Of a DNA stretch of 34,990 nucleotides, positions 1,420-16,461 are shown piece by piece. The notes under the pieces were generated by a model that was given only the letters and a program-made list of their open reading frames with translations, ran no database searches and had not been told where the DNA came from. The stretch lies in NCBI GenBank assembly GCA_021813685.1, contig JAKAJS010000174.1:1-34990 (forward strand), written 5' to 3'. Source of the stretch: Deltaproteobacteria bacterium (GTDB lineage: Bacteria; Desulfobacterota; Syntrophobacteria; Syntrophobacterales; Syntrophobacteraceae). The translations under genes were made by a program, and so were the position numbers. How positions within the stretch are numbered: position 1 is the stretch's first letter; each line of letters begins with the position of its first letter.

Positions 1420-1476
1420 AGAGATCGGGGAGACCAAGCCAATATTCGGAGTAATTGGGTTTGAGCGAAAGGAAAT

Positions 1477-2550: not shown

Positions 2551-3918
2551 ATGAACGTCGCTGTCTTCGGCGCAGGACATGTGGGTTTGGTGACCTCAGT
2601 ATGCCTTGCGGAAGTGGGACACTCGGTCGTTTGCGTCGATGTGGACCGCGCAAAAATCGAGAGCATCCGGGCGGGAACCCCCCCCTTTTTCGAGCCGGGC
2701 CTGGCGGAGCTTCTTCTCCGGGGACGGGCCACAGGTCGGCTGCGGGCGACTTCCTCCGTCGCGGAAGCAATGGAAGGTTCCGAGGTTTCAATCATCGCCG
2801 TGGGGACGCCGGACCGGGACGGCCGTATCGATCTCGTTTACGTCTTAGAGGCCGCGGGCATCATCGGAGAGCGTATCCGCGACTTTGGAACCTTCCACAC
2901 TGTGATCGTGAAGAGCACGGTGGTTCCGGGCACAACGACGGGACCGGTGCGGGAACTGCTCGAGTGCAGGTCGGGCCGGAGGGCCGGAGTGGATTTCGGC
3001 CTCGGCATGAACCCCGAGTTTCTGCGGGAGGGTTCGGCGGTCCGGGATTTCCTTTGTCCCGACCGGGTGGTATTGGGCGCACTGGAAGGTCGAACGGCCG
3101 AAGTTATGCAGCGCCTCTACGCGCTCCAGGAGTGCCCCAAGCTCACCGTTCATCCCACCGAGGCCGAACTGATCAAGTATGCGGCCAATGCCCTTTTTTC
3201 GACACTCATCTCTTTTTCAAACGAAATGTTCAACCTTTGTGAGGCCATCGCGGGCGTAGACGGAAGCACCGTACTGAAAGGGGCTCTGCTCGACCATCGC
3301 TGGACTCCGCGCATCGACGGCAAGCTGCTGGCCCCGGGGGTCCAGGACTACGTCACGGGCGGGGTCGGATATGGCGGCAGCTGCTTTCCAAAAGACATGA
3401 ACGCCATCACCTCGATGGCCAGGGACCTCGGGTGCAGGGCACCGCTGCTCGAAGCGGTGGTGGAAGTGAACCGCCGCCGGCCCGTAGTAGTCGTGGAACG
3501 TCTCAAAAGGGAGACCGGAGGGCTAAAAAGGCGCAAGGTGGCAGTGCTTGGTATGGCATTCAAGCCCGGCACCGATGATTGGCGAAATTCCCCGAGCCTT
3601 CCCCTTATAGGCGCGCTCCTGGAGGAAGGCTCCTCTGTCGCGGCATGGGACCCCATGACGGGGGCGGAAGCGGTACATGGGTGGAAAGGGCGCGTAAGCC
3701 TGTCGCGCGATCCGGGTGAGGTCCTGGAGTCGGCCCATATCGCGATCATAGCTACGGCCTGGCCCGAGATAGCCCGGTGGCCCTGGGACGATCTGGGACA
3801 GAGCATGGCGCAGCCCGTCGTCTATGACGGACGAAACCTTATGGCGGGTTTTGCCTGGCCCACCGGTTTTCGATACATCCCGGCGGGTTCGGGAAAAAAA
3901 ACTGGAGAAACTAGATGA
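2551..3918 (+). CDS. ugd: UDP-glucose 6-dehydrogenase
   Basis: A 455-residue NAD-dependent nucleotide-sugar dehydrogenase of the UDP-glucose/GDP-mannose family, oxidising UDP-glucose to UDP-glucuronate in the cytoplasm. It opens with an NAD-binding GAGHVGLVT loop and shows the family blocks VGTP, VIVKSTVVPGTT and NPEFLREG. The catalytic cysteine sits in GGSCFPKD (C278). Length is typical for the family. The ATG directly follows the upstream SDR stop, and the last bases overlap the next start as ATGA, so translation is probably coupled. Together with the upstream decarboxylase-like SDR it would supply UDP-glucuronate and a UDP-pentose for the glycan. GDP-mannose dehydrogenase is less likely, from the overall resemblance to UGD. 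Confidence 0.93.
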   Translation: MNVAVFGAGHVGLVTSVCLAEVGHSVVCVDVDRAKIESIRAGTPPFFEPGLAELLLRGRATGRLRATSSVAEAMEGSEVSIIAVGTPDRDGRIDLVYVLEAAGIIGERIRDFGTFHTVIVKSTVVPGTTTGPVRELLECRSGRRAGVDFGLGMNPEFLREGSAVRDFLCPDRVVLGALEGRTAEVMQRLYALQECPKLTVHPTEAELIKYAANALFSTLISFSNEMFNLCEAIAGVDGSTVLKGALLDHRWTPRIDGKLLAPGVQDYVTGGVGYGGSCFPKDMNAITSMARDLGCRAPLLEAVVEVNRRRPVVVVERLKRETGGLKRRKVAVLGMAFKPGTDDWRNSPSLPLIGALLEEGSSVAAWDPMTGAEAVHGWKGRVSLSRDPGEVLESAHIAIIATAWPEIARWPWDDLGQSMAQPVVYDGRNLMAGFAWPTGFRYIPAGSGKKTGETR

Positions 3919-5228
3919 ACCGGGCCGAAGAATTGCGGGGCAAGATCCTGGAACTTACGGCAGAATACGTTAAGGCGGCGCACGCTCCAAAGGCCTTTGT
4001 CCCGGGGCAGAGCAAACTCACCTATGCGGGGCGCGTATTTGACGAGGCCGAGGTTATCAACCTCGTTTCCTCCTCCCTCGACTTCTGGCTGACGGCGGGT
4101 CCCTGTGCGGGCGAGTTCGAAAACCGCATGGCGGGTTTCTTCGGCGCCCCCGATTTTTTTCTAGTCAACTCCGGCAGCTCCGCAAATCTCCTGATGGTTG
4201 CCGCCCTTTGCGCCGAAAGCGCCGACAAGGTTCCGGGCGGACCGGGACGAATGCTTCCCGGCGACGAGATCATAACCCCTGCTGTGACTTTCCCGACCAC
4301 CCTCACGCCGATAGTGCACAACCGCCTGGTCCCGGTTTTCGTCGACTGCGAGGTGGGTACCTACAATATGGATCCCGCCCTGGTTGAAGGGGCCATCGGA
4401 CCGCGTACCCGGGCAATCCTTGCGCCGCACACGCTTGGAAATCCCTGTGACATGGCGGTGCTGACCGATATCGCCAAGCGGCGCAATCTCTGGCTTCTCG
4501 AAGACTGCTGCGACGCCCTGGGCGCAACCTTCGACGGGCGTCCGGTCGGCGCCTTCGGCGCGTTGGCCAGCCTCAGCTTCTATCCGGCCCACCATATCAC
4601 CATGGGAGAGGGAGGAGGCGTACTCGTAAACAACCGGGGGTTCAAAAAGATCGTTTTGTCGCTGCGCGACTGGGGCCGAGACTGCTGGTGCGACCCGGGC
4701 CGAAACGATACCTGCGGCAAACGCTTCGACCGGCAGATGGGAGAGCTTCCCTTCGGGTACGACCACAAGTACGTCTATTCGAACCTCGGCTACAATCTCA
4801 AGGCCACCGATCTGCAGGCTGCGATCGGGCTTGCCCAGTTCGAAAAGCTCCCCCGCTTCATCGAGGCACGACGCAAAAATTTTGGGCGTCTTTTCGAAGG
4901 GCTGAAATCGCTGGAAGATCGACTGGAATTGCCACGCATCGATCCGAGGGCCAACCCCTCCCCCTTCGGATTTCCCATCACCGTAAGGAAAGGCATAGAC
5001 CGACGGGCGCTTATCGATCACCTGGAAAATGCAAAAATCGAAACCCGCCTCGTTTTCGGGGGCAATATCCTGCGTCAGCCAGGATTTTTGAACATCGAGC
5101 ACCGCGTTCACGGAGATCTCAAAGCCTCCGACCGCATCATGCGAGACACCTTTTTCCTCGGCGTCTATCCGGGCCTTGGCGACGAACAGATCGACTTTAT
5201 GTTGGAGCGGATCAACGCCTTCTTTTGA
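3915..5228 (+). CDS. rfbH: E1-type CDP-4-keto-6-deoxyglucose 3-dehydratase (PMP and [2Fe-2S] enzyme)
   Basis: A 437-residue DegT/DnrJ/EryC1/StrS-fold protein. The Schiff-base lysine of the aminotransferases is replaced by histidine (FYPAHHITMGEGG, H226/H227), which marks the E1 dehydratases (RfbH, DdhC, AscC). It also has the E1 iron-sulfur pattern: C199-x57-C257-x1-C259-x7-C267, the same spacing as known for Yersinia E1. E1 removes the 3-hydroxyl of CDP-4-keto-6-deoxy-D-glucose and needs the partner reductase E3. No E3 gene lies in the window. The start overlaps the ugd stop as ATGA, with GGAG 7 bases upstream. The enzyme class is well supported; the CDP substrate is inferred from the rfbF-type gene at 15691. 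Confidence 0.92.
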   Translation: MNRAEELRGKILELTAEYVKAAHAPKAFVPGQSKLTYAGRVFDEAEVINLVSSSLDFWLTAGPCAGEFENRMAGFFGAPDFFLVNSGSSANLLMVAALCAESADKVPGGPGRMLPGDEIITPAVTFPTTLTPIVHNRLVPVFVDCEVGTYNMDPALVEGAIGPRTRAILAPHTLGNPCDMAVLTDIAKRRNLWLLEDCCDALGATFDGRPVGAFGALASLSFYPAHHITMGEGGGVLVNNRGFKKIVLSLRDWGRDCWCDPGRNDTCGKRFDRQMGELPFGYDHKYVYSNLGYNLKATDLQAAIGLAQFEKLPRFIEARRKNFGRLFEGLKSLEDRLELPRIDPRANPSPFGFPITVRKGIDRRALIDHLENAKIETRLVFGGNILRQPGFLNIEHRVHGDLKASDRIMRDTFFLGVYPGLGDEQIDFMLERINAFF

Positions 5229-5233
5229 AAAAT

Positions 5234-5258
5234 GGCCTTTCGTAAGGCCTTGACTTTG
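5234..5258 (+). terminator. Possible weak terminator or attenuator after the E1 gene
   Basis: A 6-bp perfect stem (GGCCTT/AAGGCC) with a TCGT tetraloop lies at 5234-5249, a few bases after the rfbH stop. It is followed by an interrupted T-rich stretch. The short stem and broken T tract make it weak. It may thin transcription at the border with the AT-rich gene downstream. Confidence 0.35.
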
Positions 5259-5283
5259 ATTTGGATGTGCAAGGATAATCGCT

Positions 5284-6720
5284 TTGGGAAGAACTCTATT
5301 CATACACATTGGTCCTCCAAAAACTGGAACGAAAGCTATACAGCGGTTTCTTGGCCTTAATGAAACGGAACTTCATACCATGGGGCTTCATTACGTCAAG
5401 ACGTTACGACAGGACGGAGGAGGGCACAATCGGTTAATGAACATATTATATCACAAGTACCGTGGAACACATATCGAGGATGACAGCTTAGCATTTATAA
5501 TGGATAAGGAGAGGTATATCAAAGAGTTATCGGATGAGGTGGATAGAAACAATGATAAAAATATTATTGTGTCATCAGAAATAACGATGATGTTGCCTAA
5601 TGAAGCGGTTGATGAGTTGCTGTCCCTATTTCACACTCATGACATTAGAATGATATGCTATATTAGAAATTTACATGAATTGATACGAAGTTTGGTAATG
5701 CAATGGATTCGCTTACAGCATAACAATACAATAGATATACGCATATCCTCAATGCCAAAAAGTATTCATTTATTTATTGAGAACTATAAACAGTGTATCC
5801 AAATATGGTCAGAAAAAATAGGTAAAAAGAATATTGTTTTTCGAAAATACGGATATGATTACTTTATAAATGGCAATATATGTTCCGATTTTATCCATGC
5901 AATGGGTTATTCGCTAGCTGATGATGCGGCTGGGTTCCGTGAGATACAGAATGAATCCTTAAAATATTGCGAAACGATATATTTCAAGGATTTATTAAAC
6001 AGGATCGACTTGAGGACAGACCAAAAAGTGATCGGAGATCAACTCCTGGCATGGGAAAAATGTCATAATGGTACCCCGTTCGCCCTCCCAAACGATTTAT
6101 CTATGCAAATAAAGGGTGATGTCATAGAAACCCACCGCTTTTTGCTCGAAAACTATTTGGATAATAACTATGCGGAACTACTTAATAAATACACTAAGCC
6201 CAACGGGAGCCCGGATTACAGACCGTCGTGCTCAGACTTTGTGAATATCCTGAATTACATTGATTCGCGCATTGCAGGTTTTAAGGAAGAGTTATTAGAG
6301 AGCCTTAGCGTTTCCTTGAGCAGGTCCTATGACTACGAGCTATCGATCCGCCGTTCAGAAACTGATCTTGCAAATGTACTCATGGCTAAGAAGGCAATAG
6401 CATTATGGGGTTGCGGGGATGTTGCCAATAGACTATTAAACTTCCATAGGTTCATGAGAGACATTCCTCTGTATATAGTCGACAAGGACGTCAACAAGCA
6501 TGGCGTTTATTTTCATAAGCGTGAGATCAGGCCCCCGGAAGTAATCGCGACGGAGGAAATTGACACTGTCATCATCGCTTCGGTTGCCTACGCAGAAGAA
6601 ATTGCCGCAGAGGTTATGCGCGATTATCCAAAAGTTCGATGTATAGTCCAAGTGGATGATTTAGCCGGGCAGATTGGCATTAAATGTACTGATCTCGATG
6701 CAGTCGATCAACGATCCTGA
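5284..6720 (+). CDS. Sulfotransferase-like protein with C-terminal Rossmann-like module
   Basis: This 478-residue protein starts with a PAPS-type phosphate-binding loop, HIGPPKTGT at residues 8-16, as in carbohydrate sulfotransferases. A block like their 3'-phosphate-binding segment follows (CYIRNLHELIRSLVMQW). Residues about 369-465 form a Rossmann-like module also found at 253 and 6809. The likely role is sulfation, or another phosphate-nucleotide-dependent modification, of the glycan; this is inferred. The start is a TTG at 5284 with an AAGGA Shine-Dalgarno 8 bases upstream. The frame closes at a TGA just above, and no ATG comes before the phosphate loop, so TTG is the best choice. The gene is clearly more AT-rich than its neighbours, especially in its first two thirds, which suggests transfer from elsewhere. 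Confidence 0.72.
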   Translation: MGRTLFIHIGPPKTGTKAIQRFLGLNETELHTMGLHYVKTLRQDGGGHNRLMNILYHKYRGTHIEDDSLAFIMDKERYIKELSDEVDRNNDKNIIVSSEITMMLPNEAVDELLSLFHTHDIRMICYIRNLHELIRSLVMQWIRLQHNNTIDIRISSMPKSIHLFIENYKQCIQIWSEKIGKKNIVFRKYGYDYFINGNICSDFIHAMGYSLADDAAGFREIQNESLKYCETIYFKDLLNRIDLRTDQKVIGDQLLAWEKCHNGTPFALPNDLSMQIKGDVIETHRFLLENYLDNNYAELLNKYTKPNGSPDYRPSCSDFVNILNYIDSRIAGFKEELLESLSVSLSRSYDYELSIRRSETDLANVLMAKKAIALWGCGDVANRLLNFHRFMRDIPLYIVDKDVNKHGVYFHKREIRPPEVIATEEIDTVIIASVAYAEEIAAEVMRDYPKVRCIVQVDDLAGQIGIKCTDLDAVDQRS

Positions 6721-6808
6721 CGTGTCTGTTTGGACAGGGAGGCAGCCGGGGAAGATCGCATTTGGATTCGATTCGTATTGTGCGAATGGACGAGCCGGGA
6801 GGTGATAG

Positions 6809-8074
6809 ATGGAATTGTGGGGCGATTTTGTGGTTCTTGAGGCGCGGGTCTGCCTGGAGAGGCTTATGCCCACCTGGATAGAGACCGCACGGCGAATAGT
6901 GATCTATGCGGCAGGAAGGCACACGCAGGGCCTCTTCGAAAACGGCGACTTTTGCAGACTGAACATTATCGGCATCGTGGATCGTAATCTTGCTCTTCAA
7001 GGGCAGCAGATACATGGGTGCACCATTTATCCGGTGAGCGAAATTGCGTTTCTGGCGCCCGAGGTAATCCTAGTTTCCTCACCGCCATACCATGAAACGA
7101 TCATGGGCGAATTCGGCAAACAGTGGCAGGAGGCAGGTATCGATGCAATCGACATTTGCGAGGGCGCCAAGCCGTATTCGCCACTCTTTCCCCTGGCGCT
7201 CAAGCATGGGTTGGCCCTGGATGATTCGCATCCGGGTGAGTTCCGGATCAGCTCTGTCGGAACTCCGAGACGGGTGATCCTCCACGGCTCGCATCCCTGG
7301 GAGGGCGCACTGGATCTCATCAAGGCGTTCGATCATTATTTTGAATCCGTCGAGCCTGTCCATGTTGCCCCGGACGAAATGAGGGTGGATTTCAGGCAAC
7401 CTGCCTACCACAGGCTCAAGGCGTCGGGCCTGCGATTCTTTTTCCCTTCCCACCCCGAAACGGAGGATATGACGCTTAACTATCTCGACTTTGCAGATTT
7501 GCGGGCGGGGGACACTGTGGTGGACCTCGGGGCGTATGCAGGCCTTTCCACCTTCTTTTTCTCCCGGGCCGTAGGGAAAGAGGGAAAGGTGATCGCTGTG
7601 GAGCCGGACGATCGAAGTTTGGATGCCCTGCGCAGGAATGTCGCTGACTATGGGCTGGTGAATGTATCCGTAGAGGCGGGAGCGCTATGGGATAAAGACG
7701 GGGAAGAACTCTTCCAGGCCGAGGGCGGCATGAGTTCCGGCGTTGCCGGCGTGCTCGGAAGAACCAGTCTTGCCAAGCCGGTTCGGACATTCACTCTAGA
7801 GACATTGCTCCAACGCCACAGACTTGAAAAAGTGGCATTTATGAAACTCGACATCGAGGGGGCGGAATTGAGTGTTCTTTCCCAGGCGATGCCGCTTTTG
7901 CGGAAAATTCGGCCCAGAATGGTCATCGAGGCGCATTTATACAAGAACGGCGCTTCTAACTTGCCTGATCTGATAGCTCTGCTGGAAGCAGGTGGGTTTT
8001 CAACAGTCACCCGTGGCCAGGGCATGACAGAGTTCCCTCTCGTTCTTGCGCAGTGGGGCGGTTGTGCATCGTGA
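6809..8074 (+). CDS. FkbM-family methyltransferase with N-terminal Rossmann-like module
   Basis: A 421-residue protein. Residues about 28-117 are the Rossmann-like module (RRIVIYAAGR, then IIGIVDRN, then VILVSSPPY) shared with the genes at 253 and 5284. Residues about 215-405 are an FkbM-type SAM methyltransferase, with motif I VVDLGAYAGLSTFFF, the acidic strand-2 end IAVEPDD and the typical KLDIEGAE block. FkbM enzymes usually O-methylate sugars or polyketides; here a sugar hydroxyl of the glycan is likely. The ATG has a strong GGAGGTGA Shine-Dalgarno just upstream. The gene is GC-rich although it lies between two AT-rich ones. The family call is secure, the acceptor unknown. Confidence 0.85.
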   Translation: MELWGDFVVLEARVCLERLMPTWIETARRIVIYAAGRHTQGLFENGDFCRLNIIGIVDRNLALQGQQIHGCTIYPVSEIAFLAPEVILVSSPPYHETIMGEFGKQWQEAGIDAIDICEGAKPYSPLFPLALKHGLALDDSHPGEFRISSVGTPRRVILHGSHPWEGALDLIKAFDHYFESVEPVHVAPDEMRVDFRQPAYHRLKASGLRFFFPSHPETEDMTLNYLDFADLRAGDTVVDLGAYAGLSTFFFSRAVGKEGKVIAVEPDDRSLDALRRNVADYGLVNVSVEAGALWDKDGEELFQAEGGMSSGVAGVLGRTSLAKPVRTFTLETLLQRHRLEKVAFMKLDIEGAELSVLSQAMPLLRKIRPRMVIEAHLYKNGASNLPDLIALLEAGGFSTVTRGQGMTEFPLVLAQWGGCAS

Positions 8075-8148
8075 CAACCACAAGAGATATGACAGCATTG
8101 TTGTAAACAGTTAAGGGAAGTACATATTCAATTAAAAGGATTCTACAT

Positions 8149-9270
8149 ATGTACAAAAAGTTCCTTAAGAAATACATTTCCAAAAGTGACGTTAATATCT
8201 ACAAGGTATTCTGGCAGTTTAGTATGTCTAACGCCATTATTATTGTTGTTGATGATAATGATAAGTTTGTTGGAATAATTGGAAAAGATGATTTTCGAAA
8301 AGCATGGTCATCTCCAAATATCGATAAAATGACTGCAATTGACATTTGTAATCGTAATTGCACGCGTATCTTTGACGACCAGGATGTTTATGCCATGGGG
8401 CGAAACGTATTCGCTGATTTCGCTTTTAACAATATTCCTATAATAACGAGAGATGGTGATGTAATTGATGTTTTTACCAGGGAACGTGCATTCTATAGGC
8501 AACTGTATGTGGAAGAAAAGTTACCGCGTATGCATTATGCCACACAAATATGGGGTGCAGCCTATGAGGCGAAGAAGCTGGGCTATGACGCAATTAGTGT
8601 CATTGAATTCGGGGTTGCCGGCGGCAATGGTTTGATCAACTGTGAGTTCCACGCAAAAGAAATTATGCGAATTTTAAATATTGGCATCGATGTCTATGGC
8701 TTCGATAATGCGTGCGGTTTACCTGAAAGTAGTGATGGTTGCAAAGACATGGTCCATCTCTGGCCAAATGGCCTGTTTCAAATGGATAAGGCATTATTGG
8801 AAGATAGGCTTCAATTTGCAAAATTGGTGATAGGAGACATTAAGCATACGGCCGATATATTTTGTGATGAATACAACCCTGCACCGATCGGCACCATTCT
8901 CATCGATGTAGATTACTATTCTTCAACTGTGCCGGTATTAGGTATGCTTGAGAAGGATGATAGATTCTTTCTTCCGAGAATTTACATGTTTTTTGATGAT
9001 GTTGGTGCTTTTTATGAATTTTCAGGGGAGAACCTTGCGATAAAAGAGTTCAACCTGCGACATGAATTTCTGAAAATTTCACCGGAAAGTGTTGCACTTG
9101 AAGGAGTTGGTGGTTGGGTAGACGGGTTTGAGGGGTGGTCAGGGTGGGCGGCACCGACCAAACGTGTGAAGATGTGCCACAGGTTCAAGCATCCTCGCTA
9201 CACCCAGTCCCTTTACAATGCAAGTAAGGATAAATCCATCCAGGATGTGTGGACAACGACCCTGCGATAA
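8149..9270 (+). CDS. CBS-domain and methyltransferase-like fusion protein
   Basis: A 373-residue protein with two parts. Residues about 1-120 resemble a CBS pair: AIIIVVDDNDKFVGIIGKDD at 29-48, then NIPIITRDGDVIDVFTRE at 95-112. This is the style of CBS pair seen in front of sugar nucleotidyltransferases. Residues about 135-330 resemble a class I SAM methyltransferase of the TylF/MycF kind: VIEFGVAGGNGL at 151-162, GTILIDVDYYSS at 248-259, and FFDDV after it. A plausible job is methylation or another modification of a glycan, with the CBS part binding a nucleotide or acting in regulation; both are inferred. The start has AAAAGGA about 9 bases upstream. Base composition is AT-rich, unlike the flanking genes. 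Its stop overlaps the next start as TAATG. Confidence 0.65.
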   Translation: MYKKFLKKYISKSDVNIYKVFWQFSMSNAIIIVVDDNDKFVGIIGKDDFRKAWSSPNIDKMTAIDICNRNCTRIFDDQDVYAMGRNVFADFAFNNIPIITRDGDVIDVFTRERAFYRQLYVEEKLPRMHYATQIWGAAYEAKKLGYDAISVIEFGVAGGNGLINCEFHAKEIMRILNIGIDVYGFDNACGLPESSDGCKDMVHLWPNGLFQMDKALLEDRLQFAKLVIGDIKHTADIFCDEYNPAPIGTILIDVDYYSSTVPVLGMLEKDDRFFLPRIYMFFDDVGAFYEFSGENLAIKEFNLRHEFLKISPESVALEGVGGWVDGFEGWSGWAAPTKRVKMCHRFKHPRYTQSLYNASKDKSIQDVWTTTLR

Positions 9271-10358
9271 TGGAGGATGTGAGGGGGGTGAAGAACACAA
9301 CTTCGGAAAGTCGAATTTGTAAAACTCTTCCGGACGAGGATTTCGTTTCTCCTGACAAATCGGTCCTCACGGCGCTTAACGGCCGGAGGATCTTTGTAAC
9401 GGGGGGCACGGGCTTTATCGGCTCATGGGTTTTGGAGTATCTCTACAGGGAAAGCCGCAAGCACGGCCTGGAGGTCGAGGTGCAGCTCCTTAGCCGCGAT
9501 CCCCGCGCCTTCCTTAGGGCGAACCCGCACCTGGCAGGCTGGCGCTCGCTCTCCATGGTCTGCGGGGATGTGCGCAGCATCGCGGCCTCGGCCGTATCGG
9601 CGGACTGGGTTCTCCACGGAGCCACTCCCGCCAGCCGAATGCTAAACGAGTCAAACCCTCTGGAGATGGCCGACATCATTGTCGGGGGGACGAGGAACAG
9701 CCTGGAAATAGCGAGGCGCTGCGGGGCGAAGCGGTTTCTTTTTCTGAGCTCGGGGCTTGCCTACGGCAGCCAGCCCCCGGAACTCGATGCGCTGGTCGAG
9801 GAGCAAACGGGGCGGCTTAATTCCCTCGACCCCAAGGCGGCCTACGGAAACGCAAAACATTTCGCAGAGCACCTGTGCATCCAGTACGGCATTTCTTTCG
9901 GCTTCGAGGTCTCTATCGCCCGTCTCTTTGCTTTTCTGGGACCGCTGTTGCCGTTGGATGCACATTTCGCAGCAGGCAATTTCATTCGGGACGGTCTGGA
10001 GGGGCGCACCATCCGCGTAGAGGGAGACGGCACTCCGCTGCGAACCTATCTGCATGCCGGGGAACTCGCCCGCTGGCTGTGGACTTTGTTTGCCCGAGGG
10101 CGCCCCGGCCAAATCTACAACGTGGGATCGGATGAAATCGTAAGCATCCGGGAATTGGCCGAGCGGGTGGGGCGACTTTGTGGGGTGGGCGTAGAGATTG
10201 CCGGAACACCAGCGCCCGGGAGGCTTCCTCCGCGCTATGTCCCGGACGTGCGAAAGGCAGGGCAGGAATTGGGGCTCCGTCCGCTCTGGAATCTCGAGGA
10301 GTCTTTGTGCAGGACCCTCGCCTGGCATCGAGGAAGAATCGAGGAGAATCCCGCATGA
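9270..10358 (+). CDS. Extended SDR nucleotide-sugar epimerase/dehydratase/reductase
   Basis: An extended SDR of about 362 residues with the NAD(P) loop GGTGFIG at 45-51, LSSGLAYGS, and the catalytic Y192-x3-K196 (YGNAK). It is neither a canonical CDP-glucose 4,6-dehydratase (no GHTGFKG) nor a clear GalE. Placed directly before a YerE-like ThDP enzyme, it may be the reductase or epimerase acting on the branched sugar (YerF-like role), an inference from position. The start is uncertain: ATG 9270 overlaps the previous stop, GTG 9249 lies inside the previous gene, and GTG 9288 has a GGAGG upstream. All precede the Rossmann fold. The 3' end overlaps the next gene as ATGA, so the two are probably coupled. 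Confidence 0.8.
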   Translation: MEDVRGVKNTTSESRICKTLPDEDFVSPDKSVLTALNGRRIFVTGGTGFIGSWVLEYLYRESRKHGLEVEVQLLSRDPRAFLRANPHLAGWRSLSMVCGDVRSIAASAVSADWVLHGATPASRMLNESNPLEMADIIVGGTRNSLEIARRCGAKRFLFLSSGLAYGSQPPELDALVEEQTGRLNSLDPKAAYGNAKHFAEHLCIQYGISFGFEVSIARLFAFLGPLLPLDAHFAAGNFIRDGLEGRTIRVEGDGTPLRTYLHAGELARWLWTLFARGRPGQIYNVGSDEIVSIRELAERVGRLCGVGVEIAGTPAPGRLPPRYVPDVRKAGQELGLRPLWNLEESLCRTLAWHRGRIEENPA

Positions 10359-12175
10359 AGCTTCGCGTTGCAGACTACATAGCCAACACTCTAGTCGCGC
10401 ACGGGATAGGCGATGTATTTCTAGTCACGGGAGGGGGCGCCATGCACCTGAACGACGCCTTGGGTCATCATCCCGGGCTTCGCTACTGGCCCTGTCACCA
10501 CGAACAGGCATGTGCGATGGCCGCTGAGGCTTATTTTCGCGCCACGCGGCGGATGGCCGCTGTCAATGTCACAACCGGCCCGGGCGGGACCAACGCCATA
10601 ACGGGAGTATACGGAGCGTTTGTGGACTCCCAGGCCATGATAGTAATTTCGGGCCAGGTGAAATGGGAGACCTGTGTGCGCTCCACCGGTCTGCCGCTGC
10701 GCCAACTGGGAGACCAGGAGGCCGATATTGTCTCGATGGTGGCGCCGGTGACCAAATACGCAGTCATGGTTACCGAGCCGCGGGGGGTCCGCTATCATCT
10801 GGAAAGGGCGCTGCACCTGGCCATGCAGGGACGCCCCGGCCCTGTCTGGCTCGATATTCCGATAAACGTGCAGGGCGCGGAGGTCGCTCCTCATGAGCTT
10901 GTGGCTTATGACCCTGCGGAAGACGACGGTCGGATTCCCGGGCCCGAGGGAGCACGGCAGGGCGCAGGCCGTGTGATCGAGGAGTTGCGTTCGGCAAAAA
11001 GGCCCGTGATCCTCGCGGGGTCCGGGATATGGACCGCGGGAGCCGAAGAGCTGTTCCGGATTCTTGTCGATCGCCTGGAGCTGCCGTTCGTAACTGCTTT
11101 TAACGGCCATGACCTGATTGCTTCGACACATCCCCGGCTGGCGGGTCGCCAGGGCGCCATCGGGGACCGCTCGGGGAATCTGGCGGTTCAAAACTCCGAT
11201 TTTCTCCTGATTTTGGGCAGCCGCATGAACATCCGGCAGATCGGCTACAATTGGACGCAATTCGCCCCGGTAGCCCGCAAAGCGATGGTGGACATAGACG
11301 ATGCGGAACTGCGAAAACCGACCCTGGACCTGGAGCTGCCCATACATGGAGATGTGAAGACATTCCTGGAGGCGCTGCTGGAAGGGCTCGATGGAGAACC
11401 GATGCCGAAGGCGCACTGCGAATACCTTGAGTGGTGCAGGAAGCGGGCGGCCGCCTACCCTGTGGTGCTGCCGACTTATCTGGCGAGGGAGGCTCCTGTC
11501 AATCCCTATGTGTTTATGGATAAGCTCTTCGAACTGCTCGTCGAGGGCGACCTGGTCGTCACCGCCAACGGGACGGCCTGCATAGCGGCTTTCCAGGCGG
11601 GAAAAACCAAAGCCCGCCAGCGCCTTTTCTCAAACTCCGGCAGCGCCCCCATGGGCTTCGATCTGCCCGGCGCCATAGGCGCGGCGGTGGCGACCGGAGC
11701 CGGGCGTATCATCTGCCTGGCGGGCGACGGCAGCATAATGATGAATATACAGGAGCTCCAGACTATCAGCCACCATCGCCTGCCTGTAAAAATCTTCCTT
11801 TTGAACAACGACGGATATCATTCGATTCGCCAGACTCAGCGAAACTACTTCCGGGAACCGGAGGTCGGGATCGGCCCGGGGAGCGGAGTAGGGTTTCCCG
11901 ATTTTCGCCTTGTGGCGCAGGCACATGGATTGGCCTACGCGCGGATCGCGCGCCACTCGGACATGGAGGCGGTCATTGCAGCGCAGCTTGCAGAAAAGGG
12001 TGCGACATTCTGTGAAGTGCACATAGACCCCGAACAGCCTTTCGCACCCCGACTGGCATCAAGATTGCTTCCAGATGGGCGCATGGTGAGCGCCTCTCTC
12101 GACGACCTGGCGCCGTTTCTCGGACCCGAAGAGCTACAGGAGAACACCCTGTACATGCATCCGAAATCATCCTAA
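10355..12175 (+). CDS. Thiamine-diphosphate-dependent carboligase, YerE/acetolactate-synthase-like
   Basis: This 606-residue protein has the three-domain layout of ThDP enzymes. The N-terminal domain has the cofactor-activating glutamate E50 in HHEQACAMAAEAY. A central domain follows, and the C-terminal domain holds the ThDP/Mg motif GDGS-x24-NND at 457-486. The opening MKLRVADYIANTL is typical of the acetolactate-synthase homologues of O-antigen clusters. YerE of that type transfers an acetyl unit from pyruvate to C4 of CDP-4-keto-3,6-dideoxyglucose. With rfbF- and rfbH-type genes in the same cluster, this role is more likely here than branched-chain amino-acid synthesis. The ATG at 10355 overlaps the preceding stop (ATGA); the longer open frame upstream is not needed. 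Confidence 0.86.
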   Translation: MKLRVADYIANTLVAHGIGDVFLVTGGGAMHLNDALGHHPGLRYWPCHHEQACAMAAEAYFRATRRMAAVNVTTGPGGTNAITGVYGAFVDSQAMIVISGQVKWETCVRSTGLPLRQLGDQEADIVSMVAPVTKYAVMVTEPRGVRYHLERALHLAMQGRPGPVWLDIPINVQGAEVAPHELVAYDPAEDDGRIPGPEGARQGAGRVIEELRSAKRPVILAGSGIWTAGAEELFRILVDRLELPFVTAFNGHDLIASTHPRLAGRQGAIGDRSGNLAVQNSDFLLILGSRMNIRQIGYNWTQFAPVARKAMVDIDDAELRKPTLDLELPIHGDVKTFLEALLEGLDGEPMPKAHCEYLEWCRKRAAAYPVVLPTYLAREAPVNPYVFMDKLFELLVEGDLVVTANGTACIAAFQAGKTKARQRLFSNSGSAPMGFDLPGAIGAAVATGAGRIICLAGDGSIMMNIQELQTISHHRLPVKIFLLNNDGYHSIRQTQRNYFREPEVGIGPGSGVGFPDFRLVAQAHGLAYARIARHSDMEAVIAAQLAEKGATFCEVHIDPEQPFAPRLASRLLPDGRMVSASLDDLAPFLGPEELQENTLYMHPKSS

Positions 12176-12190
12176 CAGCCGGGAGATTTT

Positions 12191-13297
12191 ATGGCTATTA
12201 CGCTGGCGCACCCGCAGATCAATCGCGATCTTTTCGAGGATCTCTTCGTCCTTGAACTGGCCAACAACCATTGGGGAAACGTAAAACGAGGCATCGAGAT
12301 CATCCGGCAGTTCAACCGGGTTGTCCGGTACAATAACGTCAGGGCGGCCATCAAGTTCCAGTTGCGGGACGTGGAGACCTTCATTCACAAAGATTTTTCA
12401 TCACGTGCGGACATACGGTATATCAAAAAGACAGTCGATACGCGACTTAGGCCTCAGGATTTCGCAACGCTCGTCAATTACACGCGCGATAAGGCGATGA
12501 TCCCCATGGCCACCGCCTTCGATGAACGATCGGTGGACCTGTGCGTCGATCTGTGTCTCGATATAATCAAGCTGGCAAGCTCGGACATTAACGACTGGTT
12601 TCTCCTGGAAAAGATCGCCCAGACCAAAAAGCCCGTCATCGCATCCACCGGTGGTTCCTCTCTAAAAGACACCGACGACCTCGTCGCCTTTTTCGCCAAC
12701 CGAAACATTCCCCTTGCTGTGAATCATTGTGTTTCGCTCTACCCCACCGAAGACCATGAACTGGACATGAATCAGATCGACTTTTTACGCAGCCGCTATC
12801 CTAAAAACACCATCGGGTTTTCCAGCCACGAGTACGGGGACTGGACCGCTTCGATGCTTATAGCCTACGCTAAAGGCGCCAGGACCTTCGAACGGCACAT
12901 CGATATCGAGGCCGACGGGATACCCGTGAGTCCCTATTGCTCCCTGCCGCACCAGGCGGATATATGGTTCAAGGCATTCAAGAAGGCCAAGCAGATGTGC
13001 GGCACTCCTGGCATCCAGAAAAGGATTCCGCCGGCACGGGAAATCGAGTATCTCGATGCGCTCGTGCGCGGAATCTACCTTAGACATGATCTACCGGAAG
13101 GTCATGTCGTGCAGCACAACGATATCTACCTGGCGATTCCGCTCCAGAAGGGGCAGCTTTCGTGTCGGGAGTGGTTTGCGGACCTGAGGCTTGCCAGACC
13201 CCTTAAAAGACATGATCCCCTCAAGCTCGACGACTTGGCGGACCCTTATTCCCACTCGCCCGATCTTCTGGAAGTTATACGGAAGAGGGGGCTGTAG
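12191..13297 (+). CDS. NeuB-family synthase (N-acetylneuraminate synthase-like)
   Basis: A 368-residue protein with a NeuB TIM-barrel (ELANNHWGN near residues 19-27, AIKFQLRD, IKLASSDINDW, PVIASTGGS, FSSHEYGD). A C-terminal SAF/antifreeze-like domain follows at about 300-368 (GIYLRHDLPEGHVVQHNDIY). NeuB enzymes condense phosphoenolpyruvate with an aldose such as ManNAc to give a nine-carbon 2-keto acid. No NeuC epimerase and no CMP-sugar synthetase lie in the window, so the substrate may not be ManNAc. The gene follows the ThDP enzyme by 15 bases with GGGAG as ribosome site. It is the last gene of the plus-strand run, ahead of a terminator. Confidence 0.86.
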   Translation: MAITLAHPQINRDLFEDLFVLELANNHWGNVKRGIEIIRQFNRVVRYNNVRAAIKFQLRDVETFIHKDFSSRADIRYIKKTVDTRLRPQDFATLVNYTRDKAMIPMATAFDERSVDLCVDLCLDIIKLASSDINDWFLLEKIAQTKKPVIASTGGSSLKDTDDLVAFFANRNIPLAVNHCVSLYPTEDHELDMNQIDFLRSRYPKNTIGFSSHEYGDWTASMLIAYAKGARTFERHIDIEADGIPVSPYCSLPHQADIWFKAFKKAKQMCGTPGIQKRIPPAREIEYLDALVRGIYLRHDLPEGHVVQHNDIYLAIPLQKGQLSCREWFADLRLARPLKRHDPLKLDDLADPYSHSPDLLEVIRKRGL

Positions 13298-13339
13298 ACG
13301 TGGCGGATAAGAAGCGAAGCGTCTATTGAACCGCGCAGG

Positions 13340-13368
13340 GGCGGGTGGGGAGAGCCCCCGCCAATTTT
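13340..13368 (+). terminator. Rho-independent terminator ending the plus-strand glycan operon
   Basis: A GC-rich stem (about 8 bp with one bulged T: GGCGGG..GG against CCCCCGCC) and a short loop are followed by AATTTT. It sits 43 bases after the NeuB-like gene and just before the convergent glycosyltransferase. On the minus strand no T-run follows the stem, so it serves the plus strand only. Confidence 0.6.
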
Positions 13369-13380
13369 AAAGCAAAGCAC

Positions 13381-15660
13381 TCACTTTCTCAGGATTGGCT
13401 TGGTGCCGAGCAGTTGTAGCCGGGTGCTCACCAGTTTGAAGATTTGCTCCCAGGAGTAGCGGGCGCGTATGTGTTGCGACACGGCAATTGCCTTGGCGAT
13501 TGCCTGAGTTCTGTCCCCGTAGACTTCTTTCAGCAACGAAACCAAGGCCCCTTCCTCAGGCTCCAAAACCCAGCCGGCGCCGCCCGCAAGCCTTAGATCC
13601 GGCGGGACGAATTCCCGGCGTACGGATGGGATCGGGAAAAACAGGCCCGGGGGGCAGAAATCGTCGGCAGGTCCACCAGCGGTTGCGATCACCGGGATTC
13701 CGCAGGCCATCGCTTCGAGAACCGGCAAGCCGAACCCTTCGGCACGATACGGGTAAACCAGGCAGTCGCAGGTATTGTAGAGCCTTCTTCTGCGGCCGGC
13801 GTCAACAGGCCCCGTATACTGAATGATTTCGGGCGCATTCGGATCGTTTTGCGTTCTCCGGATTGCCTTGTAAATGTCTTGGTCGTCTGAAATCGCATGC
13901 TGGGCGGGGTCCATAATGACGAGGGCCACACCGTCGCTTTTGGTAAACGCCTTCCGGCAGGCGTTCAGGAGAATATCGATACCCTTTTCCCATATGGGCG
14001 GGCCGGGAAACAGAAACCTGAATTTTTCCGGTTTTCTTCGGTCGCGTTCCTCGACCGGACAAAACAAATCGGCGTCGATGCCGGGAGGTATGACGACCAG
14101 GCGCTCGGACGGAACACCGCTTGCCAGAAAGGCTTTTTGAACATGCCTGCCTGGAACCCAAATTTCATCAACCAGGGAAGCAATGGGTTCGACCCAATAT
14201 TCGGGAATTCTTCCATATTCCCAGGACTGCATCATCACCCAGCGTCCCCTGGGGGGGGGAGCGAAAAGGGGGGGCGACTGGTTTCGCACATGGACGTCGG
14301 CAGTTGCAGAAAGGATTTTAGAAGCCGGGCTTTCGGTGTCTTTGTCGGATGAAATAATCGAGACTTCGTGGCCGGCATCGAGCAAGCGGCGGCTCAGTTC
14401 CCTGTTGAGCGAAGAGCGGCAGTCGCCAGAGAATTGAGGCCCTTCCCACACTATTCTTATGGCCGGCTTACGGGGGCGGTTGCGTGCAGGCAAGCTTCTT
14501 TTGTATTCCCACCCGGCGTTGATGGCCTCAATCGCCCCCTTTGCGGCAGCGGCCGGAGAAAGCACCCAGGCCGTCGCCCGGGACATCTTTCTCCTTCTTT
14601 CCGTTTCAGGCATATCATAGGCCCGACGCATGGCGTTTCGAACATCTCTTACGTGCAGCCCGGCCATAAAAGCCTCTTTATGATGGGGCTGGTATTGCAG
14701 CATGTCCCCGGTTAACCGGTACCTGGCATTCGGGTCCACTGCTATGCCGATATAGGGTCCATCGGTTCCGATATTATATCCAAGACCTTCGGGAATAATC
14801 ACCAGTCGCTGTCTGGCCCAGGCCTCGCTCAACGGGGCCGTCGGCGTGGTATCGGTTGAAATGTACATGCTGCAGCTGTCGATCAAACGGACGATGTCGG
14901 TTCTTCGCCCCAGTTTGTCGTCAATCACGAGCGCGGCATCGGATCCCGTCTTTTGGCGAAGTCGGTCGACAAGATCGCGAAGGTCCCGTTCCGGTTTGCC
15001 GGGCACGGGGTGCCAGGGCGGGTAGTTGACCTTCAAGTAGAGTTCGACATCGCCATTTCCTTTGAATTCTTCGAAATAGGCCTCGATTAACACATCCCAG
15101 CGTCGTCTTGGCTGAAACATGGCGATGGACAAAAAGCGGAAACGCTCGGCGGAGGGTTCAAGACTTGGGGGGGCTAGTATCGGGTTTTCCAGCCAGGGAT
15201 TCGGCCAGAAAACGACTCTGATTTTTTCGGCAGGCACACCCGCCTTAGTGAAGACCTCCCGTTCTTTTCCTGTTAGAAGCCATATCTGATCGATTTGTTC
15301 GAATACCTCCAGCCATTCGGTCGGGGGGAGATTGCCCTGAGCGCTGCTGTCAAAGGTGGTGGCCATAATCCGCAGTGCAGGCTCGGGCAGTTCCACCGTC
15401 AACCAGTTTCTGCTGGGCACGTGCGAAACAATGTAGGTGACAGGGGGAACGACCGGCGTTGTCTCCAGCAATTTCATGAGAGCGAGGTCGCAATCGTCTA
15501 TGCCGAACTCGATTTCATTTACGGGTAGGACTCGGATTCGGACGCCCGCATGGTAGAGTGCTGAAACAAAGGTGCGCGCCGCACAACCGTAGCCGCTCCG
15601 GTTCCAGAAAGGCGCCAGCCAGACCAGCGTCCCTGCGGGCGCATCAGATTGCCGGTCCAC
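13381..15660 (-). CDS. Tandem double-domain GT-B glycosyltransferase (GT4-like)
   Basis: A 759-residue protein that reads as two GT-B glycosyltransferases in one chain. The first (about 1-395) has SGYGCAAR near the N-terminus, RFRFLSIAMFQPRRRWD, and a GT4-like APLSEAWARQRLVI nucleotide-binding end. The second (about 405-759) has IPPGIDADLF, FRFLFPGPPIWEKGIDILL, and the classical EGFGLPVLEAMACGIPV E-x7-E motif at about 640-655. It probably adds two sugars in the surface glycan, or one half has another role. The first half lacks a clean E-x7-E and may be degenerate. The start is a GTG at 15660 with AGGAG 6 bases upstream. It follows the rfbF-type gene by 30 bases, so the two are probably co-transcribed. 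Confidence 0.87.
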   Translation of the reverse strand: MDRQSDAPAGTLVWLAPFWNRSGYGCAARTFVSALYHAGVRIRVLPVNEIEFGIDDCDLALMKLLETTPVVPPVTYIVSHVPSRNWLTVELPEPALRIMATTFDSSAQGNLPPTEWLEVFEQIDQIWLLTGKEREVFTKAGVPAEKIRVVFWPNPWLENPILAPPSLEPSAERFRFLSIAMFQPRRRWDVLIEAYFEEFKGNGDVELYLKVNYPPWHPVPGKPERDLRDLVDRLRQKTGSDAALVIDDKLGRRTDIVRLIDSCSMYISTDTTPTAPLSEAWARQRLVIIPEGLGYNIGTDGPYIGIAVDPNARYRLTGDMLQYQPHHKEAFMAGLHVRDVRNAMRRAYDMPETERRRKMSRATAWVLSPAAAAKGAIEAINAGWEYKRSLPARNRPRKPAIRIVWEGPQFSGDCRSSLNRELSRRLLDAGHEVSIISSDKDTESPASKILSATADVHVRNQSPPLFAPPPRGRWVMMQSWEYGRIPEYWVEPIASLVDEIWVPGRHVQKAFLASGVPSERLVVIPPGIDADLFCPVEERDRRKPEKFRFLFPGPPIWEKGIDILLNACRKAFTKSDGVALVIMDPAQHAISDDQDIYKAIRRTQNDPNAPEIIQYTGPVDAGRRRRLYNTCDCLVYPYRAEGFGLPVLEAMACGIPVIATAGGPADDFCPPGLFFPIPSVRREFVPPDLRLAGGAGWVLEPEEGALVSLLKEVYGDRTQAIAKAIAVSQHIRARYSWEQIFKLVSTRLQLLGTKPILRK

Positions 15661-15690
15661 TGCGAACTCCTGAGAAAATCAACGATGGGT

Positions 15691-16461
15691 TCAAACCTGC
15701 TCCCTCCATGCCACATTTCCCGACGCCCATAGATTCTCGAGCATGTGCACATCTCTCATCGTATCCATGCACTGCCAGAATCCTTCATGCCTGAAGGCGG
15801 CCAATTGATTGCCACGCGTCAGGCGGTCCATGGGCGCTTGCTCGAAAGGTTCATCGTCGCGGGGAATGAAATTGACTATTTCAGGATCGAGGACAAAGAA
15901 GCCTCCGTTTATCCACCCTTCCCCCGTCTGCGGCTTTTCGGCAAAGGCTGCTACATCGTCGCCTTCAAAGGTGAGGCCGCCGAAGCGCGCCGGAGGACGA
16001 ACGGCTGTCACCGTGGCTATTTTTTCGTGACTTCGGTGGAATTCGATCAGTCTGTTAATATTTATATTGCCAACTCCGTCCCCGTAGGTCAGCAGGAAAG
16101 GCTCCCTGCCGATGTATTCGGCAATTCGTCTTACTCGCCCTCCAGTCTCGGTTCTGGCCCCCGTGTCGAGCAGATGCACCGTCCAGTCCTCGGCGTGCTG
16201 GTTGTGTACCGTGAGGTCGCCGGTGGCGAGTCGTACCGTCAGGCTGCACGTTCTGGCCCTGTAGTTTATGAAATAATCCTTAATCATCTCCCCCTTATAC
16301 CCGAGGGCGACCACGAATTCGGTAAATCCGTAGTCGGCAAATCCCCTCATGATATGCCAGAGGATAGGCTTTCCACCGATTTCAACCATTGGCTTGGGCT
16401 TGACTACGGTTTCCTCGGAAAGCCGGGTGCCCAATCCGCCCGCCAAAATTCCAACTTTCAT
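15691..16461 (-). CDS. rfbF: Glucose-1-phosphate cytidylyltransferase
   Basis: A 256-residue nucleotidyltransferase, the normal length for RfbF/DdhA. It begins MKVGILAGGLGTRLSEE with the GGxGTR loop, then KPKPMVEIGGKPILWHIM, LTYGDGV and GEGWINGGFFV, all typical of the CDP-glucose family. It converts glucose-1-phosphate and CTP to CDP-glucose, the entry to CDP-3,6-dideoxyhexoses. This supports a CDP-sugar substrate for the E1 enzyme at 3915. The ATG at 16461 was chosen because the conserved N-terminus starts there and GAGGGGCGG lies just upstream. The frame is open for another 131 codons, but that stretch is not family-like. Confidence 0.93.
   Translation of the reverse strand: MKVGILAGGLGTRLSEETVVKPKPMVEIGGKPILWHIMRGFADYGFTEFVVALGYKGEMIKDYFINYRARTCSLTVRLATGDLTVHNQHAEDWTVHLLDTGARTETGGRVRRIAEYIGREPFLLTYGDGVGNININRLIEFHRSHEKIATVTAVRPPARFGGLTFEGDDVAAFAEKPQTGEGWINGGFFVLDPEIVNFIPRDDEPFEQAPMDRLTRGNQLAAFRHEGFWQCMDTMRDVHMLENLWASGNVAWREQV

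Follow-up and report, generated by a model that had tools for sequence, protein, structure and literature searches.

The DNA analysed here (the window) spans bases 1 to 34,990 of contig C41 in the assembly of a Deltaproteobacteria bacterium (5.06 Mb, 285 contigs). It carries a run of sugar genes in which a thiamine diphosphate (ThDP)-dependent carboligase of the YerE type is followed directly by a NeuB-like, phosphoenolpyruvate (PEP)-dependent synthase. From gene identities, conserved catalytic residues, gene linkage and tree positions, all of which were observed, it appeared probable that the product of this operon is a C4-branched 3-deoxy nucleotide sugar. Its branch would be a polyhydroxyacyl chain instead of an acetyl group, and the donor of the chain would come from the NeuB-like synthase. 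The original prediction had proposed a C-branched 3-deoxy nucleotide sugar formed through a YerE-type enzyme, and this was well supported at the level of sequence. Its assignments of RfbF, the E1 3-dehydratase, the YerE-like ThDP enzyme and the adjoining NeuB-like gene were also borne out (Table 1). The acetyl branch and the two roles that it offered for NeuB were not upheld, as described below.

The carboligase and its NeuB-like partner

The PDB entry nearest to the ThDP enzyme was 8rph with 407 bits, compared with 216 bits for the best acetolactate synthase. The database labels 8rph a thiamine-pyrophosphate-binding protein, and we take it to be JanthE. Its CDG motif agreed with this, as it matched the description of JanthE in the accessible text of PMC12188165. 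The window enzyme has GDG at 457-459, and the catalytic Glu50 was present in all 69 aligned YerE-like rows. Trees were built from 73 rows (quick) and from 40 chosen rows (careful). In the 40-row tree, the included enzymes of 32 YerE-like gene places, with or without a partner gene, formed one group with JanthE (support 99/99). JanthE was sister to the enzymes of loci L168 and L169 (57% identity), both of which carry a 4-hydroxy-2-oxovalerate aldolase. The ThDP enzyme of L214 fell outside the window/JanthE group on a long branch; this locus belongs to the same genus and has the order RfbF-RfbG-E1-ThDP-SDR (short-chain dehydrogenase/reductase), with no aldolase or NeuB recognised. The acetolactate synthase of L059 lay outside the YerE-like group in the 73-row tree. 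Clustering with housekeeping acetolactate synthases, which the original prediction had named as evidence against itself, was looked for and not seen. The reading as a stray acetolactate synthase was dropped in view of the PDB scores and both trees. These results suggested that the window enzyme would be a ketone-accepting carboligase of the YerE-like type, adding an acyl unit to a ketone.

According to the accessible text of two sources, pyruvate is the donor of YerE itself but is not used by ErwE, which favours 4-hydroxy-2-oxo acids (PMC12247030), and JanthE accepts 4-hydroxy-2-oxovalerate, with benzaldehyde, and also pyruvate (PMC12188165). The window enzyme belonged to the clade of JanthE and the aldolase-paired enzymes, and the yersiniose-type enzyme of L214 did not, which argued against the predicted acetyl branch from pyruvate. 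Only two distant ThDP matches were found in a plasmid collection at E 1e-60. A tandem pair of YerE-like ThDP genes, the first in an 859-codon frame, was observed at L174 (8162-12557).

The NeuB-like gene begins 16 bases past the ThDP stop. Its product scored 217 bits against PDB 3g8r and 73 bits against SpsE, the next structure. It stayed below the curated cut-offs for NeuB (105.5 vs 399.65 bits) and PseI (92.3 vs 340.25 bits). K55, T108, K127, S130, S152, S211, H213 and H236 were identical in 94 aligned NeuBs, with one row gapped at K55. These rows comprised 40 short proteins including that of the window, 15 ThDP-linked cupin-fused proteins (one gapped at the start) and 39 other cupin-fused proteins. 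The invariant residues are presumably the PEP and metal binders of N. meningitidis NeuB. Residue 132 was Asp in 39 of the 40 short proteins (Asn in one) and Ser or Ala in all 54 cupin-fused proteins, which makes it a candidate acceptor-specificity residue. In quick trees (LG), the short type formed one side of a branch. Cupin-fused NeuBs without ThDP were separate from those with ThDP, except for L050, whose 4.4-kb contig carries E1 and RfbG. The cupin end of the longer type was assigned by Pfam on one relative (L048), as Cupin_2 and, just above cut-off, D-lyxose isomerase. 3g8r fell among the ThDP-linked cupin-fused proteins. It is labelled 'probable spore coat polysaccharide biosynthesis protein E' and presumably comes from C. 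violaceum; it has no assigned function that we are aware of. No close NeuB relative was found in the plasmid collection, where all 85 records were below 60% identity and the 30 matches listed ranged from 22.5 to 29.3%.

The linkage of the two genes was examined in named genomes scanned with a NeuB alignment, and the best 80 loci (L060-L139) were sorted by score cut-offs. The genome samples are partly fragmented, and many records are metagenome assemblies. A YerE-like ThDP gene was present in 37 of the 41 short-NeuB loci (40 plus L060, which also has a cupin-fused copy); the others were L061 (a 3.3-kb contig), L087, L093 and L097. This is the pairing that the original prediction had proposed to check in other genomes. 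The type of cytidine monophosphate (CMP)-sugar synthetase used as query was found in none of the 41 loci, and a Pfam scan of 15 window proteins showed no CMP-activating enzyme. Together with the ThDP counts, this spoke against NeuB as the gene of an unlinked acidic sugar, which was one of its two predicted roles. In the 40 loci other than L060, RfbF was found in 23, RfbG in 21, E1 in 20 and a HAD phosphatase in 21. The window-type SDR was found in 19 of them (and in L060 as well), an FkbM-type gene in 22 and relatives of the methyltransferase MT1 (Table 1) in 10.

The other 39 loci were best matched by a cupin-fused NeuB. They were grouped by the presence of ThDP, so their ThDP counts follow by construction, and the RfbF, E1 and CMP counts are independent. 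Five had ThDP; all five had RfbF and none had CMP-sugar synthetase. In the remaining 34, ThDP, RfbF and E1 stayed below the cut-offs, and GFO/IDH was found in 29, CMP-sugar synthetase in 29 and HAD in 27. Cupin-fused NeuBs without ThDP, for example at L102, L109 and L133 and also at L045 (8840-12238), mostly stand with GFO/IDH, HAD and CMP-sugar synthetase, and this looks like a widespread separate ulosonic-acid pathway. The same contig of L060 holds two unlike ThDP/NeuB pairs: one of the cupin-fused type at 280-3278 on the minus strand, in several pieces, and one of the window type at 8135-11107 on the plus strand. An AroB-like gene was observed beside ThDP and either NeuB or an HpcH relative at L064, L082, L086, L088, L091, L092, L164, L165, L171 and L172. 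One was tested (TIGR04425, 299.5 bits, below the cut-off of 400). An SDR is usually alongside, and L064 and L086 have a sugar-kinase-like gene.

YerE-like ThDP genes were also sampled directly. Among 196 relatives, 14 ThDP places scored at least 379 bits and all others at most 274. Under a stricter E limit, 369 genomes from the class of a Pelomonas added 7 places, and 294 genomes from the phylum of a Pirellula added 11. The resulting 32 places were inspected across 20 kb at most, or across as much contig as there was, and an enzyme of a donor-maker type was near 26 of them. The NeuB family accounted for 18, with more distant NeuBs in genomes G084 and G181. Three places (L142, L168 and L169) had 4-hydroxy-2-oxovalerate aldolase with acetaldehyde dehydrogenase; L142 passed both NCBIfam cut-offs, and the aldolases of L168 and L169 were 64-65% identical to that of L142. 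One place (L141) had an HpcH/HpaI aldolase (PF03328, 85 bits), and four (L140, L164, L171 and L172) had a weaker HpcH relative. A profile of these four and L084 gave just two PDB matches, a 2-keto-3-deoxy sugar aldolase (E 1e-4) and a 4-hydroxy-2-oxoheptanedioate aldolase (E 1e-3). NeuB was thus exchanged for unrelated makers of 4-hydroxy-2-oxo (3-deoxy-2-keto) acids with the ThDP type constant, which suggested that NeuB makes the donor. As a control, 136 of the lower-scoring ThDP places were listed, and none of these lay within 10 kb of a NeuB match (by eye); G003:C150 among them is the yersiniose-type L214. No described NeuB/YerE pairing turned up among the papers listed by literature searches, and NeuB is not named in the accessible text of the review cited for the ErwE donors. 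Erwiniose-like clusters with RfbF, RfbG, an E1-type gene, ThDP, the aldolase and acetaldehyde dehydrogenase were observed at L142 (5781-13942), L168 (9629-19122) and L169 (9531-18911).

Origin of the acceptor

The E1 enzyme was nearest to 3bcx and 3bb8 in the PDB (477 and 473 bits, vs 182 for the ColD type). Cys199, Cys257, Cys259, Cys267 and His226 were kept in all 39 aligned E1s. From the alignment to 3bcx, we take the cysteines to be the 2Fe-2S set and His226 to be the histidine in place of the pyridoxal phosphate lysine. RfbF was 75-78% identical to the RfbF of four same-genus cassettes (L048, L051, L053 and L056). A UXS-like gene and UGD (1477-3918), which were absent from the original prediction, lead straight into E1, and the UGD stop overlaps the E1 start. 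The UXS-like protein scored 193 bits against human UXS1 and 111 against the next family. Its catalytic Thr, Glu, YxxxK, Asn and Arg were kept in an alignment judged by eye, with the residues taken from the accessible text of PMC10338323. Deducing 4-keto release from these residues was dropped, because the structures described there do not explain why the products of UXS-type enzymes differ.

No convincing CDP-glucose (CDP, cytidine diphosphate) 4,6-dehydratase (RfbG) was found in the window, whose contig is cut at the left, and the best RfbG-type match in the genome was 91.5 bits. The corresponding values were 101.3 bits in the L060 genome and 123.6 bits in the L084 genome, so that RfbG may lie elsewhere in the latter. 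Presence was judged with a protein query, since the model cut-off was unusable (a same-genus RfbG scores 224 vs 278). The yersiniose A set of RfbF, RfbG, RfbH, E3, YerE and reductase was incomplete, as RfbG and E3 were neither found in the locus nor well matched in the genome, which on a cut contig is not final. Among 40 loci with E1 and ThDP, the window excluded, 36 had RfbG, two had UXS without RfbG (L060 and L084, both with UGD) and two had neither (L121 and L178). Of 35 E1 places from two genome samples, 25 had RfbG in the 1.5 kb upstream; the window alone had UGD there, and nine had neither, some of them cut short by contig ends. UXS, UGD and E1 are contiguous in the window and in L060, and L084, of a distant lineage, has RfbF-UXS-UGD-E1; no RfbG was recognised in these loci. 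UGD and UXS thus occupy the usual place of RfbG, which suggested that the acceptor may be a 3-deoxy-4-ketopentose. EvdS6, a relative of UXS, gives a precedent for a pentose acceptor, as it releases 4-keto-xylose that is thought to be branched by a thiamine pyrophosphate (TPP) enzyme (PMC10338323, accessible text). The predicted CDP-3,6-dideoxy sugar was therefore retained in its 3-deoxy part, and the CDP-3,6-dideoxy form became uncertain.

Proposed pathway and competing explanations

Every reaction of the pathway, with its substrates, the chain length and the order of steps, was inferred from the gene content. The NeuB-like enzyme would join PEP and an aldehyde (an aldose or aldose phosphate) to a 3-deoxy-2-keto acid. 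The ThDP enzyme would decarboxylate this acid, and attack of the resulting acyl anion on the ketone at C4 of a 3-deoxy-4-keto nucleotide sugar would give a tertiary alcohol. The acceptor would be formed by RfbF, a 4-keto-forming step and 3-dehydration by E1. The 4-keto-forming step would be RfbG in most relatives (giving CDP-4-keto-6-deoxyglucose) and here may be UGD with UXS (giving a 4-keto-pentose). The SDR would then reduce the branch ketone, and the methyltransferases and the late-inserted sulfotransferase-like gene would decorate the sugar.

Several observations weighed against this pathway. No good E3 for E1 was found; the best own-genome match was 26% and 28.7 bits in a weak search with one short E3-like query, and similarity to the same query showed E3 in just 2 of the 41 short-NeuB loci. 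A HAD phosphatase gene is present in about half of the loci of short-NeuB relatives, and none was recognised in the window or L060. Six of the 32 ThDP places had no donor maker (two in G574, and G811, G814, G726 and G149). All but G149 are at most 3 kb from a contig end. G149 (L144) was seen in full context, with a ThDP enzyme inside the clade and no partner; a NeuB with a CMP synthetase 8 kb off was not counted. The HpcH relatives are weak matches (Pfam 19.6 bits, below the cut-off), and L084 has both NeuB and an HpcH relative, so one of them may serve another purpose. At L059 (G093, 9016-13171, outside the 136 places listed), a true acetolactate synthase lies 1.3 kb from a sialic-type NeuB. 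It was 46% identical to an acetohydroxyacid synthase (AHAS) of its own genome and 33% to the window ThDP enzyme, and no other branched-sugar genes were recognised there. Linkage to NeuB is thus not exclusive to YerE-like ThDP enzymes.

It appeared unlikely that the ThDP enzyme transfers acetyl from pyruvate, as in yersiniose, with the NeuB product forming another residue of that polysaccharide. None of the 41 short-NeuB loci had a CMP-sugar synthetase of the queried type, unrelated 2-keto-3-deoxy-acid aldolases replace NeuB beside the same ThDP type, and the same-genus L214 enzyme stands outside the clade. Such a sugar would nevertheless agree with the presence of all yersiniose enzyme types save RfbG and E3 and with the use of pyruvate by YerE (PMC12247030) and JanthE (PMC12188165). 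The adjoining L059 pair, around which the reference search showed no sign of a branched-sugar pathway, is also in its favour. The original prediction had also considered that NeuB acts after the ThDP enzyme and adds the three PEP carbons to the branched sugar. NeuB enzymes add three carbons to a sugar, and the window has the gene order ThDP then NeuB. However, NeuB comes first in L064, L067, L084, L094, L121 and L166, the ThDP step would yield an alpha-hydroxyketone bound to a nucleotide and not an aldehyde, and the exchange of NeuB for aldolase with acetaldehyde dehydrogenase better fits a small free donor. This order of action was therefore considered very improbable.

For the preferred reading, in which NeuB supplies the ThDP donor, a hexose and a pentose acceptor were about equally likely. 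We saw an even chance that the acceptor is a CDP-hexose, with RfbG in the gap left of base 1 and with UGD and UXS making UDP-xylose (UDP, uridine diphosphate) for another residue. This variant is compatible with the NeuB-derived donor. The window does start at contig base 1, and the frequency of RfbG given above (36 of 40 E1 and ThDP loci; 25 of 35 E1 places) is in line with it. The window E1 was 42-58% identical to 35 E1s from RfbG-bearing loci, its RfbF shared 75-76% identity with the RfbF of three RfbF-RfbG-E1 cassettes from the same genus, and the L084 genome has the RfbG-type match of 123.6 bits. In contrast, the UXS-UGD-E1 order recurs in L060 and in L084 from a distant lineage, again without a recognised RfbG, and the matches in the window and L060 genomes were low. 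More tentatively, and short of an even chance, the locus may represent a new class of higher-carbon branched sugar. In this class, a 3-deoxy-ulosonic acid from a Kdo/sialic-type synthase (Kdo, 3-deoxy-D-manno-octulosonic acid) would not be CMP-activated; a ThDP carboligase would decarboxylate it and graft it, whole but for the CO2, onto a 3-deoxy-4-keto sugar. Here that acceptor would be a new one, a nucleoside diphosphate (NDP)-3-deoxy-pentos-4-ulose from UGD, UXS and E1.

Gene layout and related systems

From 253 to 13297, all genes are on the plus strand with short gaps or overlaps between them (Table 1). GT4 and then RfbF follow on the minus strand to the right of the NeuB-like gene. Window base 1 is an assembly end, so the cluster may extend leftward. 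Three proteins scanned at 16.8-21 kb (an FeS/DUF3786 protein, an amino-acid permease and an M48 protease) were not sugar-related. In L055 and L056, the ThDP/NeuB cassettes are followed by proteins 51-58% identical to the GT4. The predicted SDR was confirmed as an SDR, and its start was moved to 9300, as 9270 is the end of the previous open reading frame.

Table 1. Genes of the proposed branched-sugar cluster in the window
Feature	Position	Strand	Evidence
MT1, S-adenosylmethionine methyltransferase with C-terminal Methyltransf_14-like domain	253..1419	+	PF13489 77 bits, PF08484 25 bits
UXS-like decarboxylase, NDP-glucuronate to 4-keto-pentose or pentose (predicted)	1477..2550	+	nearest PDB human UXS1, 193 bits
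UGD, nucleotide-sugar 6-dehydrogenase	2551..3918	+	TIGR03026 375 bits vs cut-off 189.8
RfbH/E1-type pyridoxamine phosphate (PMP) + iron-sulfur 3-dehydratase	3915..5228	+	NF011936 (NCBIfam RfbH) 619 bits vs cut-off 423
Sulfotransferase-like, C-terminal Methyltransf_14-like domain, GC-poor insert	5284..6720	+	Sulfotransfer_1 19 bits (below cut-off 22); Methyltransf_14 22.1 (below 23.5); GC 0.40
FkbM methyltransferase, N-terminal domain like MT1 C-terminus	6809..8074	+	TIGR01444 94.9 bits vs cut-off 37.7
CBS-like N-terminus + putative methyltransferase (by eye), GC-poor insert	8149..9270	+	CBS PF00571 23.1 bits (below cut-off 24); GC 0.41
SDR, proposed reductase of post-carboligation ketone	9300..10358	+	PF01370 126 bits; overlaps ThDP start
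YerE/JanthE-type ThDP carboligase	10355..12175	+	PDB 8rph 407 bits vs AHAS 216
NeuB/3g8r-family PEP-dependent synthase, proposed ThDP-donor maker	12191..13297	+	PF03102 123 bits; 3g8r 217 bits
GT4-type glycosyltransferase	13381..15660	-	PF00534 61.8 bits
RfbF glucose-1-phosphate cytidylyltransferase	15691..16461	-	TIGR02623 366.6 bits vs cut-off 300.25

L060 was the closest relative, with 71% DNA identity to window 9608-13290 and 70% to 1801-5224. In L060, E1 is directly followed by the SDR, whereas the window has three genes between them (block 5229-9299). The two GC-poor genes of this block differ from the core, where GC is 0.54-0.62. Since the block is absent from L060 and two of its three genes are GC-poor, the sulfotransferase-like and CBS genes are most readily read as decorations acquired later, and the block was dropped as a part of the core pathway. 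The sulfotransferase of the original prediction thus remained a weak reading below its cut-off. A similar domain of about 100 residues was observed C-terminally in both MT1 and the sulfotransferase-like protein and N-terminally in FkbM. It matched between MT1 and FkbM (E 8e-11) and between MT1 and the sulfotransferase-like protein (1e-4), with no match between the latter and FkbM, and is possibly a nucleotide-sugar docking domain.

The yersiniose A pathway resembles the window in RfbF, E1, a YerE-family ThDP enzyme and the SDR. It differs in its pyruvate donor, and the window has a NeuB partner, no convincing RfbG or E3, and a ThDP clade apart from the yersiniose-type L214 (YerE was compared by description only). 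The erwiniose system is similar in that the window enzyme lies in the JanthE clade and ErwE donors are 4-hydroxy-2-oxo acids according to the accessible text of the review (ErwE was likewise compared by description). However, the nearest relatives of JanthE pair with aldolase and acetaldehyde dehydrogenase and not with NeuB, and the CDG and GDG motifs differ. Caryophyllose is a C12 sugar, 3,6-dideoxy-4-C-(1,3,4,5-tetrahydroxyhexyl)-hexose, and the CH2 beside its attachment carbon is as expected from a decarboxylated 3-deoxy-2-keto acid (PMC5706390, accessible text). Its 2'-deoxy branch (ThDP gene MMAR_2332, M. marinum) is therefore alike, a likeness drawn from the published structure and not from the ThDP sequence. 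NeuB/Kdo-type 3-deoxy-ulosonate pathways share the PEP-dependent synthase, often a HAD and, in sister lineages, the fused isomerase-like cupin; unlike in those pathways, no CMP activation was seen here and a ThDP carboligase stands in its place. In the eurekanate part of everninomicin, a UXS-type decarboxylase (EvdS6) is also proposed to feed a 4-keto-pentose to a TPP branching enzyme, but the donor is acetyl and the two-subunit TPP enzyme is of another type (PMC10338323, accessible text); no E1 step is mentioned there. 3g8r is the nearest solved relative of the window NeuB but belongs to the ThDP-linked cupin-fused sister lineage.

These results give a testable function to the NeuB subfamily and to the related structure 3g8r. 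They also propose a general answer to a missing step, the source of long hydroxylated donors for YerE-type enzymes. If this is true, the donor class, and with it the branch, could be predicted from the aldolase or NeuB gene nearby. The enzymes would be carboligases for tertiary alcohols with sugar-like side chains. The NeuB/ThDP pairing was seen across many bacterial lineages, in about ten phyla as judged from record titles, and points to little-explored large branched sugars, suggesting that large C-branched sugars are commoner than the few described.

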